Below are positions 3,863-63,468 of a DNA stretch of 64,000 nucleotides, piece after piece. The translations under genes were made by a program, and so were the position numbers. This stretch comes from Dermatophagoides farinae (taxonomy: Eukaryota > Arthropoda > Arachnida > Sarcoptiformes > Pyroglyphidae). Location of the stretch: positions 620,001 to 684,000 of the forward strand of contig NC_134685.1 in NCBI RefSeq assembly GCF_024713945.1, given 5' to 3'. Numbering within the stretch: position 1 is the first letter of the stretch; each line of letters starts with the position of its first letter. The notes below the pieces were generated by a model. The model saw only the letters and a program-made list of their open reading frames with translations, did not search any database and was not told where the DNA came from.

Positions 3863-6800
3863 CTGTAGATGAAACAAAAAAATGTTTTTCAAATTTTAAA
3901 TTAAATTTTTTGAAAGAAATTCTAAAGCTTCTTACAAGATTCAAAGCAGTGTATTATAAAATTAAGGTTGATTATTATCATCCATGGAAAGCAATTATGG
4001 ACATGTTTAGCGAAATGATTAGTTTTTGTTACATTCAAAATAGCAATTAAAAAAAATAAATGAATGACCAGGAAATAAAAATAAATATCATTTCATACCT
4101 TGTATAACGAGAAGATAATTGGCATGAATTTTTGTTTGTTGATCAATCATTGAACATTGATAAACACCGCCATTCTCATAGGTAATACGATCGATTAATA
4201 ATCGATTTCGATCAATATGAACATTTGATTCAAATTGTCGATGATTTTTACCTTCATCATTATCGATAATTGACCATCTTATAGGTATTGATTCAGGATC
4301 ATCTTTACCATTCAATAAACATTTCAGTTCTAACGAATCATCCAAATTGATTAGATCTTTATCGGCTTTTATGCGTAGGTCATTAATTAAAATGGCTAAT
4401 TGAGAGAATGTAGAGAATAAAATTAATTTCTGTGTAGAAGAGAAAAAAAAATAAACTTACGAGCACAAGATTCTTCATCCGATCTATCCAAACAATCCAC
4501 AATCATATTACAACGTAACATAATATGAATACATTCACCACTTTGAACACATAGAAATTGATTATGGTCACAATTATGATATGTAGGTTCTTTAACCGTT
4601 AGAATGATAGCATTTTGTTCGACTAATGATCCATTCCATATAACGTGACAAAAATATCGGCCAACATGATCCATTTGAACTGAACCGATATGTAATTGAT
4701 TACGAATTATTTTCACATTATTTGGTAACATTTTTGATAAAGATTGATTATTCTGATGGTGATGATAATAATCAAATTCATTGGTAGAATCAAATTGCCA
4801 TTCAATATCTAAATCTTCATTTGGTTCAACAAATTCCGTTGGACAACGAAGCATTAAATTTGCACCCAAAATAGCTACTTCTTCACGAACATTTTGTGGA
4901 TCACGACCATCGACAACAATTATTTCCGATAATGCTTCCACACGACCAGCACCATTAACAGCGGTACAAAGATATTTCCCAGCATCCGTATATTCAATTC
5001 CATGAAATATTATACGACTTGTTATCGTTTTCGATCGAATACCACCATCACCATCGCCATCGATCATCAAATCATCACGGCGTACACCAACATTATCGGT
5101 AACAACAATACCAGTGGGCAGTTCACTATCAATACGGCTCCAAGTAATTTGGGCCATTGATTGCTGATGATGATTATTATAATCATGATTATTATGATGA
5201 CGATTTAGATTAATATCATAATCATAATAATTATCATCATTTACATCATTATTATGATCATCATCATCATTATCGAGAACCGCCACACAATCAATAATGG
5301 CAGTGTCACCTGGGCGTACTGTTTGTAATGGTGGATCAATTTGTATTCTAGGCGGAACTATAGGAAAAACAACAAAAGGAGAAGAAAAAATCAATTAATA
5401 AAAATCGATTAATAAATTTCAATAAGCTAACAAGCTAATACACTATATCTATGATCTAATGATTAGATTAATTGATTTTCAATAATATTAATTAATTAAT
5501 TATATTACCTTTTGCCCAGGTACCTTGCCGTGATCAATGCAAGCAGTATGATAATAAGAGAGGAAAGCAAAATGACAATGACCGCGCTCTCAATCAACTT
5601 ACCAACGACGGCTAAACGTGCACGATTCTTGAATAACATTTGTGATTGATGTGAATTTGGATCATCAAGATATCCGAGACAATAATAATCACCACTATCC
5701 TGTGGTTTCACCTGATCAATTGTTAATGTTCCATTCTCTACACGTGACATATCTGGCAATGATACATTATCGGCACGAATCCATTTGATTATGATATTAC
5801 GTTTTGTACCGCGTACAAAACATCTAAGTTCAGCCCGTGAACCTGCAGCTACGGTAACAACTTTTTCTTCAACATTAACATCAGGTACAGAATTGAAATT
5901 CTGTTCAACAATTAATTGTATTCGTTCTTCAGAATTGCCCATCGGTGATTGTAATGAACAAACATAGATTCCATTATCATCAAGTTGTACGGACTGTATC
6001 TGTAATGTTGCACGATTATCTTCAATGGAAACCAAATGCCGTTGTCGTTCTGAATTCATTGTTTGATTCATATAGTAGTTATGATGACCATTGCTTAATT
6101 TATGCCAATTAAGTTTTGTTGGCTGGCCACGATGATTCAAACGAACACTAGATTTACATTCTAATCGAACAAATTCATTTTGTCGTACACGATATGGTGT
6201 GTTCTGTAAAATTCGTACGCGTGGAATTTCTGGCATTGATAATGATGTTTGTGCCGTAGCACGACCAGCTAAATTTTCGGCACTACAAACATAAACACCT
6301 TCATCATGTTGATCAATTTGATCAAACTGCAATAGGCCACCATTAACCTGTGCATTCGATGTGAATGGTGAACCGTCCAATCGACGCCATTCAATCGTTG
6401 GTTCCGGTATACCGCCTGTGACTCGACATTGAAAATATGTACTATGCAAATACAAAATAAACATCAATCAATCAATTATCGATCTAAAACGATTAGTTAC
6501 CTGGAACCTTCACTAAGAACAACACGATCAATTTCAATCGATGGTATTTGCCGCCGTTCAATTTCAACAAAAGCTGATGCATTGCTAATGCCATCTATGT
6601 TTTCAGCACGACAAATATAAATGCCACGATCTTCAACTTCCATACGTCTGATGATCAATTGATCACCATCAATTTCATGACGTCCATATGGATCAATCTG
6701 ATCATATAATTTTAACCACGATATTGTCGGTCTTGGATTACCACTGGCGATGCATCGTAATTCACCACGTTGACCTTGTACAATTGTTTGTCTTGCAGGT

Positions 6801-40918: not shown

Positions 40919-43900
40919 TTACCAAACACTACATTTTTCACGTGGATTCATTGGTGTACCCGGTTGACATTCATATGCTTTTGAAAATTCGGCAAAATTA
41001 CTCAATGTACCAATCACACGAAATTTACCCAATGAATGACGCCATGTTTTCAATGCTTCAACCATACCTTCATCGGTCATTATTTGGCACCAGCTTTGTG
41101 CAAATTTCAAGAAAAAAAGCTGATCATGTGTCATATTTAAACCGGGTAAATAAAATTCATTTGGTCGCTGTAATAGAGATCGTCGAAATGCACGATATGA
41201 TTGTTTAACACCACCATTGTCGGCAATATTCTCACCAAGTGTTAGCAATCCATTTGCCTATTACATCATCATCATCATCATCATTATCAAATCGGATTCA
41301 ATAATTAAAGAAAAAAAAATCAAAAGATTAATGATAACAACATTTGTGCAAAAAGACGAAAACAACATACATTCAATGTTTCACCATGAATTTTAACTGT
41401 ATAATTATTATATTGCATAATCATACATGATGATTTCTTTATAAATCTATCAACAGTATTTGGATGCCACCAAAGTCTTTGATTACCAAATTGATCATGA
41501 TGTCGGCCATTCGAATCGAAACCATGTGTTAATTCATGTCCAATGACCTGTTGTTGATAATGATGAGAAAAAAAATCAATAAATAAATCAACAACAACAA
41601 CAAAAACGAAAAAAAAATGGATTTTCAATTGAAAATTTGTCTATTCGATTGATAATTGCCATTCAATAAACGTGCCTATGGTGTCTGTGTGTAAATTAAT
41701 GTCAAGATCAAGTTTGTTGAAAATCCAGTTCTGACCAATAATAATAATATATATAAATACTAGGTCAAAGGATTTCAATTTACAATCGATTTCTATTTTG
41801 TTTTTTTTTCTCTTTGAAACATAGCATGAAACCGCCACACGCAAATAGAGTTCATGGATAAAACATGAGATTATCATATCATTATCAAAATACTACGATA
41901 TCGACAAAACTATTGCGCTTTGTTGACATTGAAAATTGGAGAAAAAAAAATTTGAAATTTTCGTCCGTTTGTTTTTATGAAATATGCATAAAAACATAGC
42001 GAGAAAAAAGGATTGAAAATAGAAATTGCGCCACAAACAAAACAACGAAAAAAAACTAAACAAAACAAAAATTTGTCACACACGACCGAATATACGACTA
42101 CAAAAAAATCATTAATAAATGGACAGAGATTTTTTTTTCAGTTTTGTCAAACTTACCGAACCAATAGCTCCATAATTCAATGCAGGTGGATAATTTTTAT
42201 TGAAAAATGGTGATTGCAAAATGGCTGCCGGAAAACCTTAAAATATATTAAAAATGGGCGTTTATCAATCAATGAATCGTAATTAATACAAAAAAAAGTG
42301 ATTATATCTCCATTAAAAAAAACTTACTCATCAAATTACGAAATCGATGATATTGAGCATTTACAACGCTTGGCATAACAGTCCATCTATGATTCAAAGA
42401 GAAAAAAAAATTATCAAAATCAATCATTTCAGAATGATCCATCAATCGCTTACTTGGTACGATCATCAACAGATGATAATTTTGCCTGTGATTTTGTCGT
42501 CGAATTACGTAGATATCCAACAACATTTTCAAAATAGGTTGTGTTTTCAAATTCCAACTAAAATAAATAGACACATAGTTGCCAACAAAAAAAAAGTGAA
42601 AAAAATGACACCAAACATTCATTCGAAAAAAAACTTACATGTTCAAAATCTTTATCCAATAAAACCGGATCAAGTATATAATCGGGAAATCCAATATGTT
42701 CTTCCATCATTTCGGCCTGTTTCAAAAAAAAAAAAAAATAAAATATGAATAAATATGAGTTGAAAAAAGGCGGATATTTAGACGAAATGAAAGATAAATT
42801 ATATCCGAATTAAGATAAGACACTGATCTTTAGTGCACTGAACACAGACACACCTTCTTTTTAGCATCATTGCGTGTTTCATCATCCATCCATTCAACTT
42901 CATCCAATATGAGCATAAATTCTTTTTTAATATTCTTAATCATTCCTTCGGCCTATTTTGCAATCAAATGAAGAAAAAAGACAATTGTTAAATACACATA
43001 GTGAAAACATAACATGTATGTTCAGAGCACTTACCTTTTGTTTACTTTCAAGATCAAAATATTTTCGCACATATAATGCACTGACTGCTGTACCAAGATT
43101 TCCATTAACAAATTCAATACATTTTTTCCATCGTGCCGGTATCGATTTCGTACCATATTGATCACGATAATAAGTCTTCCAATATATTCTCGAAACGTTG
43201 ATCCAAATTTTTAATACGATTCATAACAAAACGCCATAGTAGATAATTTTTGATGATTCTTTAGGATTTGATGGAAAAAAAAGCAATAGCAATTCAATTG
43301 AAATCGGAAATTGACATTTGATTGATTGATTGATTGAATAAAAAGGGAAAAAAATAACAGGAGAGAAATTATCAATTGTTGTTGTATTGGACAATTGTAA
43401 AGAAAGAATGAGAAAAACATAAACTAGAAAAAATGGCCATCATCATTATCATCATCATCAATGATGATGACAAGTGACAAGTAAATGCATACAAAAGACT
43501 TCCTTATTTTGCAAAAAAAGAAAAAAAAATTCAAGTGTTTCTAGCAATCAAAAAGTCACACTTTTATGTGATTTTTTTTTTGGCTGTGGTTGTTGTTGTT
43601 TTCCGACAAACAAATTTTTTTTTCATATATCGTAACATATCGTTTTCAACAATTGTTTGCGGTTTAAAATGACTTACCGTTCCGGAACTGTTTGTGTTAT
43701 ATCCTGAACATCGAGAAAATAATCAAATCCAAATATACCGATAGATTCAGTATCATTCAATGGTTGTGGTATGGTTAATTCAAAATATTTTTGCCAATTA
43801 ATCCTCGGTACTAGTTTAGCCAATTTATTCACTTGCATACGTTGATAGGCGGCACCGCCAGTTTTTTCAAACATTGAAGATATATTTGCTAAACGTGTTT

Positions 43901-49546: not shown

Positions 49547-50533
49547 ATGAAGATAAAAATATTTGCCGTAAGACTTTTCTACAATTTTTATAGGTAAATT
49601 TTTTTTATACTTTGAACTTGAAATTTGCAAAACAGAAATTATAATTTCCACTTTTTCACTTTTTGATTAGCATATTTGGATTTTGTTTCGGACGATTCGA
49701 ATGGGAACATCGATGGTCAATGATTAAATGTGTAATTATGATTACAATATTCATTAATGGCATATTTTATATGTTTGATTATAATCAACATGAATATCAT
49801 GGTATATCGGCAACTAAAATTAGTCAAAATGCATTCGGTCTTTTAATTGACAAGATAAATGCAACATTATATCTTATGGCATTTATTGTATCATACATAG
49901 TTTATTCACTGAATGGTTATGATTTAATCCGTTTGGCTGATTCATCAATATTTACGGCAATGTATCCGGATAATTGGAAACATCGCATCATATCAATGGC
50001 TTTAATTTTAATGGCAATTGTTGATAGTATAATAATGTTTTATTGTTTTGGTGAATGGGTTGTTAGTTTCGACACAATACAAATGTCAATTATAAATCTA
50101 CTAAAATTTTATATACCAAAAAAAATGGAATGAATGGAATGGGTTGTTATTTTTTTATTTTATTTTATTTAAAGCATTTATATGTTATTGGGTATTGATG
50201 GATTATTTATTTTAATTTTCATTATTGAATGGACATTTTACTTATTATATAACTTTTTAACAATTCATATGAACGCAGCAAGTATCATTCAATTGGTAAT
50301 CGTCATTTTCAATGGATCATTTATATGTTATTGGGTTTTTTTTTTTTTTTTTTTTTTTTTTTACCAGTCCTAAATCATGTAATCAGAGTAGATATTTTGA
50401 AATGATTCATCTATATCAAGAATATTTCCGTATGAATCTTTATGATCTTTTTGTTTATGATCAACGATTTTTATTTTCAATGATTCTATTTGCTAACTGT
50501 TATTTCATATTGATAATACAAACAGAAATTTAA
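49547..50533 (+). pseudogene. Gustatory-receptor-like pseudogene 2 (deletions and poly-T)
   Basis: Exon 1 (49547-49593, MKIKIFAVRLFYNFY) and the start of exon 2 (from 49671, IFGFCFGRFEWEHRWSMIKC) are intact and spliced like the functional copies. Exon 2 stops at 50133 after the fourth membrane segment; a deletion then leads to an out-of-place fragment (50182-50330, LLGIDGLFILIFIIEWTFYL). A run of more than 25 T at about 50336-50362 replaces roughly 75 residues before the 3' end (50363-50533, YFEMIHLYQEYFRMNLYDLF, ending LIIQTEI). Three separate frames are needed, so no full protein. The surviving parts are still very similar to the intact neighbours, suggesting recent damage or an assembly problem at the T run. 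Confidence 0.85.
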
Positions 50534-50954
50534 AGATTTCGAAAATAAGATGATAATTTTAGTGATAATTTCTGATACCAGATGGTGATTTCGGAAACAA
50601 ATTTGAAAGCTGATCTATCTATATATTTGTTTATGGACAAAAATTTCTTGAATCAATGATTCGATGATATAAGTCAAAAAATAAATAAAGTACAAATTAT
50701 TGTGCGTCAAATAGTAATATCTATCATCATGAAAAGGAAAAATTTATCGATTCATTATCAACGGTTTCCATAGTTTATTATTTTGTTATTTTCAGATCAA
50801 TTATTCAATTTAACTAAATGTTCAATTATGATGAAACAAGAAAAAAAATTATCGATCTATTACCGATTTTCCATCAAATTGATTGTCTTGTTTGGAACAA
50901 CAACAACAGCACAACACCATTACCATTTTTATTTGGTCTTGATCCAATGATATA

Positions 50955-52226
50955 ATGGCGATAAAAATATTTTCCGTTAAACTTTTTCATTATTTTTACA
51001 GGTAAATTTTTTCATTTAATTTATTATTCAATTATCGTTTTTTTCTCATTTATCTCTTTTAATAAACTAGTTCTATTGGATTCAGTTTCGGATGTTTCGA
51101 TTGGAAACATCGATGGTCAATCATCAAATGCATTATTATGAACATATTGTTCATCAATGCTATATATCATATAATGGATTATAAAAAGCATGAATATACC
51201 GACTTAAATGACACAGCATTTAATCAAAAAATATTTGGACGTTTTATCGATAATATATCTGCTTCTCTTTATATTGGATCTTTTTTCGTATCATATCTAA
51301 TATATTCATTGAATGGTCATGATTTAATCAAATTGGCTGATTCATCAATATTTCAAAAAATATATCGTAATGATTCGAAAAATCTTATTGTATCAGTGGT
51401 CATACTTATAATGGTCATTTTATATAATTTAATTATGTATTATAATTTCGGTAATTGGAGTGGACGTTTTGAAGAAATATTAGAATCCTTAAAAAATCTA
51501 ATCAAAACTTATATGATAATAATGATGTATTTCAATCAAATTCTCGTAAAATTGATGTTTTATTATTTTAAAAATGCAATACGACAATTATTACAACGAA
51601 TCGAATGTCAATTGGATTCCAATGAAATTACCGAAATAGAATGTATGAATAATATACGTGAATTGGCACAAATTTCGATGAAATTCCATTTCAAAGCTGG
51701 TTATTTAGCATTAATTCTCATCATTGAATATACATGTGAACTGATGTATATAATGTTGAAAATTCAAATGCAATCGACGAATATGATTCAATCAGCACTA
51801 ATGATTTTCAACATATTCAACATATCATTTATATTCTATTTGGCATGGATGGATAATCAAATTCAACAAACATTACGGAATATTATCAAACATCTTAGCT
51901 ATCGAAATGATCGACGACAACAAAATTTTAAAATTCAATCAGCAAGATCAATGGATCGCCTGTTGTCATTATTGGATCGACAACGCAAAAATTCAATGGA
52001 CACCGGTCAATTATGGCCATTGTTCGATCAGATTGGTGCCATTTGGATGATGAAAATACGACCAAAATCACGTAATCAGATTCGATATTTTGAAATGATT
52101 CATCTATATCAAGAATATTTCCGTATGAATCTTCATGATCTTATTGTTTATGATCATCGATTTTTACTTTCATTGAACATATTTGCTGCCAGTTATTTTG
52201 TGTTGCTAACACAAACGGAAAATTAA
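50955..52226 (+). CDS. Gustatory-receptor-like seven-transmembrane protein, copy 3 (intact)
   Basis: Probable ligand-gated chemoreceptor of the insect-type gustatory family. Two exons: a 47-base exon 1 (50955-51001, MAIKIFSVKLFHYFY) and exon 2 (51071-52226), joined in phase 2 across a 69-base intron; 400 residues. About seven hydrophobic segments are visible, with an intracellular-type loop rich in Arg/Lys/Gln (RNDRRQQNFKIQSARSMD) before the last one. The C-terminus SYFVLLTQTEN resembles the TYxxxxxQ motif in the last helix of gustatory receptors. Identity rests on topology, length and this motif, not on a database match. Upstream it shares GATC-rich sequence with copy 2. Confidence 0.72.
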
Positions 52227-52590
52227 AAATTTTAGTAATAATTACCGGGCATCAAAATATAGTAGAACTTTTCTATAGAAATTCATCAACGGTTGCCATG
52301 TTTCCAATGTCTTCATCATATTATTTTGTTTCAAATTCAACCAATTGATCGAATGTTTAATTATGTGAAAATTAATTTGCTATAAATCGATCAATCAATC
52401 AATCAATCAATCAATAAGAAAACAGGAATAAATATTGATCCTCTGAACATTATCATTATCATAATAATTACATGGTATGCTATTCTATTTATGAATTTAC
52501 TTGACTTTAGTTTCATTATCATCATTACATTTTTGGCATTCATTTGTTTCATTTTGCAACAACAACAACAACCATCTTTAATAAAAAAAA

Positions 52591-53883
52591 ATGAAGATAA
52601 AAATATTTGCCGTAAGACTTTTTTACAACTTTTATCGGTAAATTTTTCAACTTTGAACTTGAAATTGAAATTATAATAATGTTGAATTTTTTTTCCACGT
52701 GTTACTTAGAATGATTGGATTTAGTTTCGGACGATTCGAATGGAAACATCGATGGACAATGATTAAATGTACAATCATGACTACATTATTCATTAATGGC
52801 TCTTATCATGTATATATTCATAATAGTCAAGAATACGATGGTGTATCAGCAACTAAAATTAGTCAAAATGCATTTGGTCGTTTAATTGATATGATTGGTG
52901 AATTTCTATATTTGATAACATTTATTGTATCATATCTAGTTTATTCATTGAATGGTTATGATTTAATCCGATTGGCTGATTCATCAATATTCACTATAAT
53001 TTATCCAGATAATTTGAAACATCGTTTCATAGCGATAACATTTTTGATCATAACAATTATTGATTGTTCATTGTTGTTTAATTATTTCGCCAGTTTGACC
53101 ACAAGTTCAATGGCGTCAATATCAATGATGAATTTACTTAAATGTTATATTATGGTGATGATGTATCTTAGTGAAATTCTTTTACGATCATTGTTTTATT
53201 ATTTCAAAAATGCCATCCGACAATCATTACAACGAATTGAATTACAATTGAAATCAAATGAAATCACCGATGAAGAATGTATTAGTACTATACGTTTATT
53301 GGCTTATATTTCATTGAAATTCAATTCTAAAGCTGGCTTTTTTGGTTTTTTATTTATACTTGAATGGACATTCTATCTTATACATACATTGCTTACGATT
53401 CATCAAGGGCAAGCTACTGTTTTTTCTATGATTATTTTGGCTATTAATTCATCATTTACATTTCTTTGGATATGGATGGATAATCGAATTCAACGAACAT
53501 TACGTAATATTATCAAACATCTTCGCTATAGAAATGATCGACGACAACAGAATTTTAAAATACAATCAGCAAGATCAATGGATCATCTGCTGGCATTATT
53601 GGATCTACAACGTCAAAATTCAATGGACACTGGTCAATTATGGCCATTATTCGATCAAATTGGTGCCATTTGGATGATGAAAATACGACCAAAATCACGT
53701 AATCAGATTCGATATTTTGAAATGATTCATCTATATCAAGAATATTTCCGTATGAAATTTTATGATCTTTTTATTTATGATCAAAGATTTCTACTATCAA
53801 TGATTATAGCTGCTTATGGTTATTTTGTGTTATTGATACAGACAGAAAATAATGAAGAAAAAAATCAAAATATGACAAATTAA
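52591..53883 (+). CDS. Gustatory-receptor-like seven-transmembrane protein, copy 4 (intact)
   Basis: Same structure as its upstream neighbour: exon 1 52591-52637 (MKIKIFAVRLFYNFY) and exon 2 52710-53883, phase 2, total 406 residues. N-terminal segment GFSFGRFEWKHRW, then hydrophobic helices, SLNGYDLIRLADSSIF after the second, and the conserved loop WPLFDQIGAIWMMKIRP before the final helix ending YFVLLIQTEN. The N-terminal two thirds differ clearly from copy 3, while the last third is almost identical, including synonymous sites. It has a slightly longer tail (NEEKNQNMTN). Function as a taste or contact chemoreceptor is inferred. Confidence 0.72.
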
Positions 53884-61193: not shown

Positions 61194-61922
61194 TTCATAT
61201 ACATGATGATTATACTAAAACTAAAACAAACAAACAAAAATGGATTGAATATGGAACCGGAAAAAACTGGACTAGATTCTTTATCGAAAAAAAAAATGAA
61301 AATGAAAACAAAAAAATTGACATAACTTTTTCAACTGTTTTTTTTTTTTTTGAATGAATGAAAAAAAAACACAGTTGAATGCCATGGTACCCAGGGCAAA
61401 GAAAAAATGGGCTCAAATACAGTTTGTGTGTGTGTTTTGTTGAAATCATCGAAACAAAACAACCACAACAACAACAACAAACGTCAATCATTGGTTTGGT
61501 TTGGTTCGATTTTTTGTTTTGTTTTGAAATTCAAGCCAAAATTATTCATTCATTCATTCATCGATCAATCAATGACAATCAACAATAACTTGTCATTAAA
61601 TTTTAAACAAATTTCCGTTCAAATATCATTAGTTTCTCTCTTTCTCTCTATCTCTGTTTCGAAATTCAAATTCACAAGCAAAAAAAAAAAAAAAAAAATG
61701 AGAGCGAGAGAGAGAGAGAACATAGTTTTCAAATGACAATTAACCTTGAATCAAAAAAATTTTTGTTTTCCAAATGGCAAAAAAAAATGACGATGATGAT
61801 GGTGATTTCAAAATTTTCAAAACGAAAAAAAAATTTTTTCTTCATTTCTCATTTCATCGTCCATCATTATATTTGCATTTTCAAATCTTGATTACAAATA
61901 AATTGAAAATTGAAAAACAAAC
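58807..61922. other. Probable GPCR intron, no coding sequence seen
   Basis: Poly(A/T), (ATC)n, (CA)n, (CCAA)n and GAGAGA tracts; no exon resembling TM1-TM3 of the receptor and no other gene recognised on either strand. Confidence 0.45.
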
Positions 61923-63468
61923 ATGTTGTTTAGAGTGAAAAATTTCATCTATAATGCCATGAAACATATTGGTGATGAATATGGATCCAGCCATTATCGA
62001 CGATTACATAGAATGGACATGATTCTTTGTATTTATTCATTTATACGATTATTAATCATTGGCTTAATGTATATGGATGTGGATAGATTTCCATTATATA
62101 AATATGATTATGCATCATTGTATTGTTGGGAAAATCGTAAAATAGTCAATAAATTCTTTATAATCATTCAAATATTGATTACAATGATTGAATTTGTTGG
62201 TATAAAAACATTTTTCTATACACCATCCAATAGGCTTAGTATTCAGATTCTATATGATTGTATTGTTTATAATACGGATCAATATTATAAAAGTTTTGAT
62301 AAGCCTGAAAATATTGCAACAAAAATGTCTATTCGTTTTGATAATCATTATTGTCAACATATCCATCATCATTGTCATCATCATTGCTGTTCATCTATGG
62401 TGATGAAAAAATTATTTATATCAATCATCATTAAGCATTTGATTTACATTAAAGTTTGGCTAAAATCATGGCTAGAAATGGATCATATAGACAGGGAAAT
62501 GTTTGAAAAAATCAATAAAATGAAACTATTTCCATATGCAACAGCTAAATGCCGTTATAATGTTGTATTGTTTGTAATGATTATCGATTTTTGCACTTTT
62601 ATTGGCCATTTTATTGCAAGTCTATTTTTTGCTTTACCATAAACAAATCATTAATGAATTTCATTTCATTATCAAATAAAATAAAGTATCACTAATCATC
62701 ATTGGTTTCATGGCAACTTTCAAACAAATTTTTCAATATCAAATTGTTCAAAATTCATTAATAATGAAATTATTGATCATAATGGAATGTCCAATAGTCA
62801 TACATAATCTATTACAATTATATCAATATGCAGCATTATTATCATGTACAATAATGGCAACATATCAATTATTTCATTGTGGATTGAATGAATTGAATAG
62901 AAAATTTTATAAAATTATTTTGGATAATAAAAAACGACAAAAACAAAAATCAATCAATCAGAATGAATTACAACAATTACAATTCATTTATAGACAACAT
63001 AATCGTCTATCATATTATGAATTATTGACCAATAAACAAACATGGAGCCATTCATTATATTATTTTACTATCATTAGTTTACCGATTAATATTACATTTA
63101 TATGTGAATTGATTTTCGAAGATTTATCCATACAAATACAATTATTATTCATATCGATTATAATCATCCATATGTTAACTGGTCTATTACCATTTCTGAC
63201 ATTAGCAAATGTTTCAAATGATTTTCATAGAATTAGAAATTATATTCTACCAATGCAACCACTATTAAAATGTCGACAACATTTACGAATGAAAATCAAA
63301 TATGATTGTCTTTATGAACGATTAATGTTTGGCAAAAAAATTGCATATACAATTGGACATCTAGCCGAGATAACATTCACCGGTTTAGTGGAAGCATTTT
63401 TACATTATTTTGTTGCTTTTTTTCTAATAATTGGTTTCTATATGAAAGAACAAAATTATAATTTATGA
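61923..63468 (+). CDS. Multi-pass membrane protein of unknown family (possibly chemoreceptor-like)
   Basis: Two open frames that I join by a short intron: exon 1 61923-62619, intron 62620-62686 (GTCTAT...AAATAAAG), exon 2 62687-63468; phases agree and the product is 492 residues. If unspliced, the first frame ends at 62642. Hydrophobic segments include LCIYSFIRLLIIGLMYM, FFIIIQILITMIEFVGI, VVLFVMIIDFCTFIGHFI, YYFTIISLPINITFICELIF, LLFISIIIIHMLTGLLPFL and FLHYFVAFFLIIGFYM. A His/Cys cluster (HYCQHIHHHCHHHCC) lies between the second and third. No TYxxxxxQ ending, so gustatory-receptor membership is doubtful. The donor is weak, and the acceptor lacks a pyrimidine tract. Probably lies inside an intron of the opposite-strand GPCR. 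Confidence 0.6.

Follow-up and report, generated by a model that had tools for sequence, protein, structure and literature searches.

A conserved hydrophobic tail encoded at the start of a perlecan intron suggests a membrane-anchored form of perlecan in the mite Dermatophagoides farinae

Directly behind the exon 26 donor of the perlecan gene of Dermatophagoides farinae, the reading frame continues into the intron and codes for a short, strongly hydrophobic and conserved tail that ends at a stop codon. We consider it likely that this intron start is retained in mRNA, whether by intron retention, intronic polyadenylation or use of a more distal donor, and that the resulting perlecan is a type I membrane protein. 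Membrane-anchored perlecan is our best reading of the locus, and its main rival is an element acting at the RNA level alone. We propose that perlecan would have two C-termini in D. farinae. Splicing at the strong donor at 5602 would lead on to further immunoglobulin (Ig), LDL-A and laminin-G domains and a secreted protein. Should splicing pass over this donor and leave the intron start in the mRNA, the ribosome would read on in frame into a stop-transfer helix followed by a short basic tail in the cytosol, and the LDL-A, laminin and Ig domains would be displayed on the cell surface without the laminin-G end. The initial annotation had put forward a membrane-tethered perlecan lacking the laminin-G region as a candidate, and the finding of conserved tails and stops in 16 of 19 related frames argues for it.

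The window is a stretch of 64,000 nucleotides (assembly GCF_024713945.1, contig NC_134685.1, positions 620,001 to 684,000 of the forward strand), and coordinates below are counted from its first base. Perlecan lies on its minus strand. A hand-built model of 27 exons (19934 to 4461, minus strand) contains 3523 codons and no stops, and all 26 introns are GT-AG with consistent phases. The gene extends past the model at both ends; the model begins at an internal exon (19934), and coverage beyond exon 27 consists of a scan for open frames. Domain order here is LDL-A, laminin IV/EGF, Ig array and laminin-G/EGF, which is that of HSPG2; the laminin, Ig, EGF and laminin-G domains were assigned by Pfam and the upstream LDL-A repeats read by eye from the model. 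A perlecan name appears in at least one source for six of seven database matches to a search region that ended before the tail, and over that same region the database protein P0002 (Dermatophagoides perlecan variant 5) is 100% identical to our model. The start methionine of P0002, which stands for 15 member sequences, is internal in the hand-built model, and annotation of the perlecan gene in Dermatophagoides looks unsettled. The upstream exon at 19934-18707 (minus strand) codes for ~400 residues, with Asp, His, Asn and Gln abundant in much of this part and the first LDL-A repeat at its end; such an exon looks unusual where perlecan has its attachment end.

Exon 26 (5603..6441, minus strand) codes for most of three Ig domains, with three stretches each matching Pfam Ig_3 and I-set, and its last strand runs directly on into the tail. 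It ends at 5603 in phase 1, at the main 5' splice site TTG/GTAAGT (5597..5605, minus strand; the slash marks the junction). P0002 is spliced at this donor and represents the spliced form. In the secreted form exon 27 (4461..5357, minus strand; one Pfam LDL-A match) is joined as RARLAVV/VPPRIQ, and it would be lost from the anchored form. Past the donor, the 98 bases at 5602-5505 (minus strand) fill up one split codon and continue for 31 codons to a TAA (5507-5505), giving a tail of 32 residues composed of a linker (GKLIES), a nonpolar core of 20 residues and a basic end (RYLGKR). This agrees with the original reading of a frame open for 32 codons past the exon 26 donor, given there with no strand, and running through a linker, a hydrophobic helix of ~21 residues and a basic tail to a stop. 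As had also been noted, the piece is G/C-richer than its surroundings, with 42.9% GC compared to 18.4% in the other 147 bases of intron 26 (5358..5504, minus strand). An origin as a copy of a repeat or mobile element was rejected, as the 98 bases match one place and the 39-residue peptide one place in the species' own genome (62.4 Mb, 22 contigs; highly frequent words are passed over in the DNA search).

Thirty-two open codons in a row arise easily by chance, as they did in 16% of 20,000 simulated introns. In 0.14% of these introns the read-through reached a Kyte-Doolittle mean of at least 3.0 over 19 residues, and so hydrophobic a stretch appeared in 1 of 20,000 shuffles of the tail (0.005%). 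At the same time, one of the 25 other perlecan introns (17460-17047, minus strand) also reads through to a hydrophobic stretch, with a Kyte-Doolittle value of 3.08, which we took as chance and used as a control. Hydrophobicity alone is insufficient for the claim because of this second intron, and the combination of open-frame length and hydrophobicity was set aside as too weak a proof of an anchor. On a biological insertion scale, the tail scores -5.1 as opposed to +2.7 for the control intron.

Predicted structure points in the same direction. AlphaFold2 (AF2), run with a 20-row alignment (mean pLDDT 80.6, pTM 0.45), places Ig strands up to residue 288 and then one 28-residue helix at 291-318, in keeping with the earlier statement that the tail directly follows the last Ig strand. 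By block, pLDDT is 68 for residues 291-300, 95 for 301-310 and 83 for 311-320. Stop-transfer anchors consist of a hydrophobic run followed by basic residues, and judged by the hydrophobicity scales and AF2 the tail has both the ~20 nonpolar residues and the basic, cytosolic flank of such a signal. Perlecan is the textbook secreted basement-membrane proteoglycan, and it is only the predicted read-through form that would depart from this description, the spliced form being without a membrane anchor here.

It is because of its conservation in relatives that the tail stands far above chance. With the whole open frame of exon 26 and its read-through (320 aa) as query, a protein collection including frames from assembled public DNA yielded 19 related proteins of 176-560 aa out of 1618 candidates. 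The tail and the same stop residue are present in 16 of these 19 open frames. In each of the 16, between one and five of the 32 residues differ from those of the window, for the most part by conservative changes; P0011 almost coincides with the window (98%). For the 17 tailed rows (16 relatives and the window, 136 pairs, with an insertion in P0024 falling outside the counted columns), mean pairwise identity was 0.951 in the tail compared to 0.667 in the adjoining last Ig domain, and the tail was the more conserved of the two in 134 pairs. Even the best 32-column stretch of Ig sequence reached only 0.776 (226 stretches examined). Twenty-three of the 32 tail columns are invariant, while the nine variable ones contain I/M, V/I, I/L (twice, once also F), L/M, T/S/A, R/K, S/G and G/D, and substitutions within the core preserve hydrophobicity. 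Insertion scores of the 16 tailed relatives range from -4.6 to -5.8, all strong on this scale. The sole indel is the one in P0024, which is in frame, lies between linker and helix, and leaves the helix intact. Stops, indels and an absence of hydrophobic conservation in related mites had been named at the outset as the pattern that would speak against an anchor, and what we observed is the opposite.

Three of the 19 frames are without the tail. P0019 ends in KNRGK, and its exon seems to be cut earlier by an extra intron, making it uninformative. The distant P0025 and P0026 (37% identical) end in VTGKYL and VVGK, within four codons of what is apparently the same donor, so that in these two the donor seems to be present and the tail absent. 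Four other frames (P0014, P0017, P0018 and P0020) begin with apparent unspliced intron pieces, and P0014 also contains one, which suggests that the relatives' frames come from genomic DNA. These pieces differ among themselves, while the tail does not. Judging by likeness, the relatives behind the 19 frames would be mites. No DNA of relatives turned up in four scans of sequence collections that used the Ig and tail alignments, and among 39 candidates for the tail of a near full-length query, covering proteins of ~1592-5066 aa only, no long protein carried the tail at E <= 10.

In a tree built on the Ig parts with the tail removed, P0021 and P0022 fall outside a well-supported 16-row group that holds the window, and the branch joining them to this group, as against two spiders, has a support of 76/78. 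This branch, which has the 17 tailed rows together with P0019 on one side, is not firm. In the Ig part, P0021 shows an identity of 58% with a spider and of 50% with the window; its tail differs from that of the window in 1 of 32 residues. As a feature of the sequence, the tail is real and deeply conserved, and it is probable that the related animals, too, possess a cell-bound, so far undescribed perlecan.

One point against the anchored form is the strength of the donor that has to be skipped, which scores 10.08 on a matrix derived from the other 25 donors of the gene. The expression of this form, its RNA route and its location at the cell surface are what we infer, and several routes can be envisaged. 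A rather unlikely one, which forms part of the main reading and would still yield a membrane form, is the use of a distal donor at 5523 or 5508, extending the exon through the anchor and joining it out of frame to exon 27. The two possible 5' splice sites are AAG/GTACCT (5518..5526, minus strand), use of which would give ...LITASSA and a stop, and AAG/GTAATA (5503..5511, minus strand), which overlaps the tail's own stop and would give ...ARYLGKSSA and a stop; in either case the helix would be followed by SSA and a stop. The tail's two AGG codons each create an AG/GT site, AGG having a share of 0.00 among the Arg codons of the gene, and the conserved KR-stop could equally represent a conserved AG/GTAA. 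Their scores of 5.70 and 4.55 compare with 4.22-12.32 for the 26 modelled donors but are well below that of the main donor, and a stop that is actually used would explain just as well why 15 of 16 relatives end in KR (P0016 has KK). With full retention, the product would comprise 3256 residues from the first exon of the model and lack the Ig, LDL-A and laminin-G domains that lie further on; such an mRNA, having a long 3' part with downstream junctions, would likely be a target of decay. For intronic polyadenylation, a scan for 12 poly(A) hexamers detected only a weak AATATA at 5506, with no AATAAA or ATTAAA anywhere in intron 26. Both distal donors, retention and intronic poly(A) would all therefore give an anchored protein.

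Codon use in the tail supports a different explanation, in which the conserved element works at the nucleotide level, controlling splicing or RNA fate (one example being a decay switch located at the donor), with the hydrophobic peptide as a by-product that is either unmade or irrelevant. G or C occupies the third position in 19 of 32 codons (GC3 of 59%), with 6.1 expected from the gene's own codons (GC3 of 18%); none of 100,000 simulations and none of 3491 in-gene 32-codon windows came as high. Outside the gene, 26 of 14,680 such windows did, these being drawn from 264 kb of genome and from open frames of at least 200 codons that are not verified as genes. Hydrophobic segments in four other frames of the window have a GC3 of 0.25-0.30 compared to 0.50 in the tail core. 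The initial annotation had remarked on unusual codons in the tail, and these counts bear that out. Since the codon use is so far from that of the gene, in an A/T-rich genome, a constraint on the nucleotides is suggested: synonymous sites of the tail may be held too, perhaps for splicing control, which counts against the simplest, coding-only reading. Three possible donors within 100 bases, and a stop that could trigger decay if kept, would suit such an element as well.

Against a purely nucleotide-level role, a long and strongly inserting helix followed by a basic end and a stop is not expected of non-coding sequence, as the shuffles indicate, and the changes in relatives are mostly conservative, with the indel in frame. 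The eight distinct core changes are weak proof in this respect, given that ~75% of random amino-acid changes would also stay nonpolar or Ser/Thr. A structured RNA was rejected, as the fold z-score (0.91) shows no RNA structure and Rfam gave no match for 5300-5700. On balance, we regard a nucleotide element without a functional peptide as unlikely. The tail avoids the codons TTA, CTA and TCA (P 2e-4, given the codon usage of perlecan), and because of their absence the in-register antisense frame at 5496-5615 (plus strand) runs through 39 codons without a stop.

It is very improbable that the hydrophobic end serves instead as a GPI-attachment signal giving a lipid-anchored perlecan. By eye, a short C-terminal hydrophobic segment does follow small residues, but the segment is long, strongly inserting and succeeded by RYLGKR, a combination that fits a stop-transfer helix better than a cleaved signal. 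A chance open frame, for which the hydrophobic read-through of the control intron might be cited, is refuted by the 16 of 19 relatives that conserve the tail, and we give it practically no weight.

Returning to membrane-anchored perlecan, a more far-reaching version can be put forward tentatively, though we would stop short of calling it probable. Tethered perlecan may be old and general in a large arachnid group and have been missed by gene finders that always splice at the strong donor, the 98 bases may be nucleotide-constrained to set a switch between secreted and anchored forms, and the helix may be specific and probably bind a membrane partner, because its conservation goes far beyond what simple anchoring requires. 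More broadly, the case shows that conserved ends of coding sequence can lie concealed where an intron begins, outside the view of annotation.

Elsewhere in the window, several long frames are found at 49645-53880 and 61914-63465 (plus strand), three of which (49645, 51066 and 52669) share a motif like SFGxFEWKHRW; they are perhaps a chemoreceptor-like family. Frames at 40922-41257 and 41323-41640 (minus strand) contain GENIADNGG and HELTHGFD, which we take to be motifs of M13 peptidases (neprilysin).

Perlecan/HSPG2, known as trol in Drosophila and unc-52 in C. elegans, is the same gene as that of the mite and has the same domain order. For trol, 25 splice variants of 2853-4489 aa are predicted (PMC10328508), and unc-52 has several isoforms (PMC6266596); perlecan is called secreted in the accessible text of both papers. 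No membrane-spanning form figures in these portions of either source, in contrast to the mite gene with its conserved C-terminal helix coded at an intron start. Several perlecan isoforms are among the proteins detected in a trombidid mite, and the accessible text of that report is likewise without a transmembrane perlecan (PMC6275457). None was listed in searches of the open-access literature. If the anchored form is real, the producing cell would hold matrix, or matrix-bound growth factors, at its own surface, and syndecans and glypicans would be joined by another membrane heparan sulphate proteoglycan. Switching between secreted and anchored isoforms is known in itself; in perlecan an anchored form would be new, as we know of none. 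Agrin, also a basement-membrane proteoglycan, has secreted and membrane forms, with an N-terminal anchor supplied by an alternative first exon, whereas the perlecan anchor would be C-terminal and of type I. Syndecans are type I membrane heparan sulphate proteoglycans, as anchored perlecan would be, but have an unrelated core protein. The immunoglobulin heavy chain offers the same kind of switch, in which soluble or anchored forms depend on splicing versus reading past a donor. With IgM, the secreted form results from reading on and the membrane form from splicing; in perlecan the direction would be reversed, with reading on giving the anchored form.
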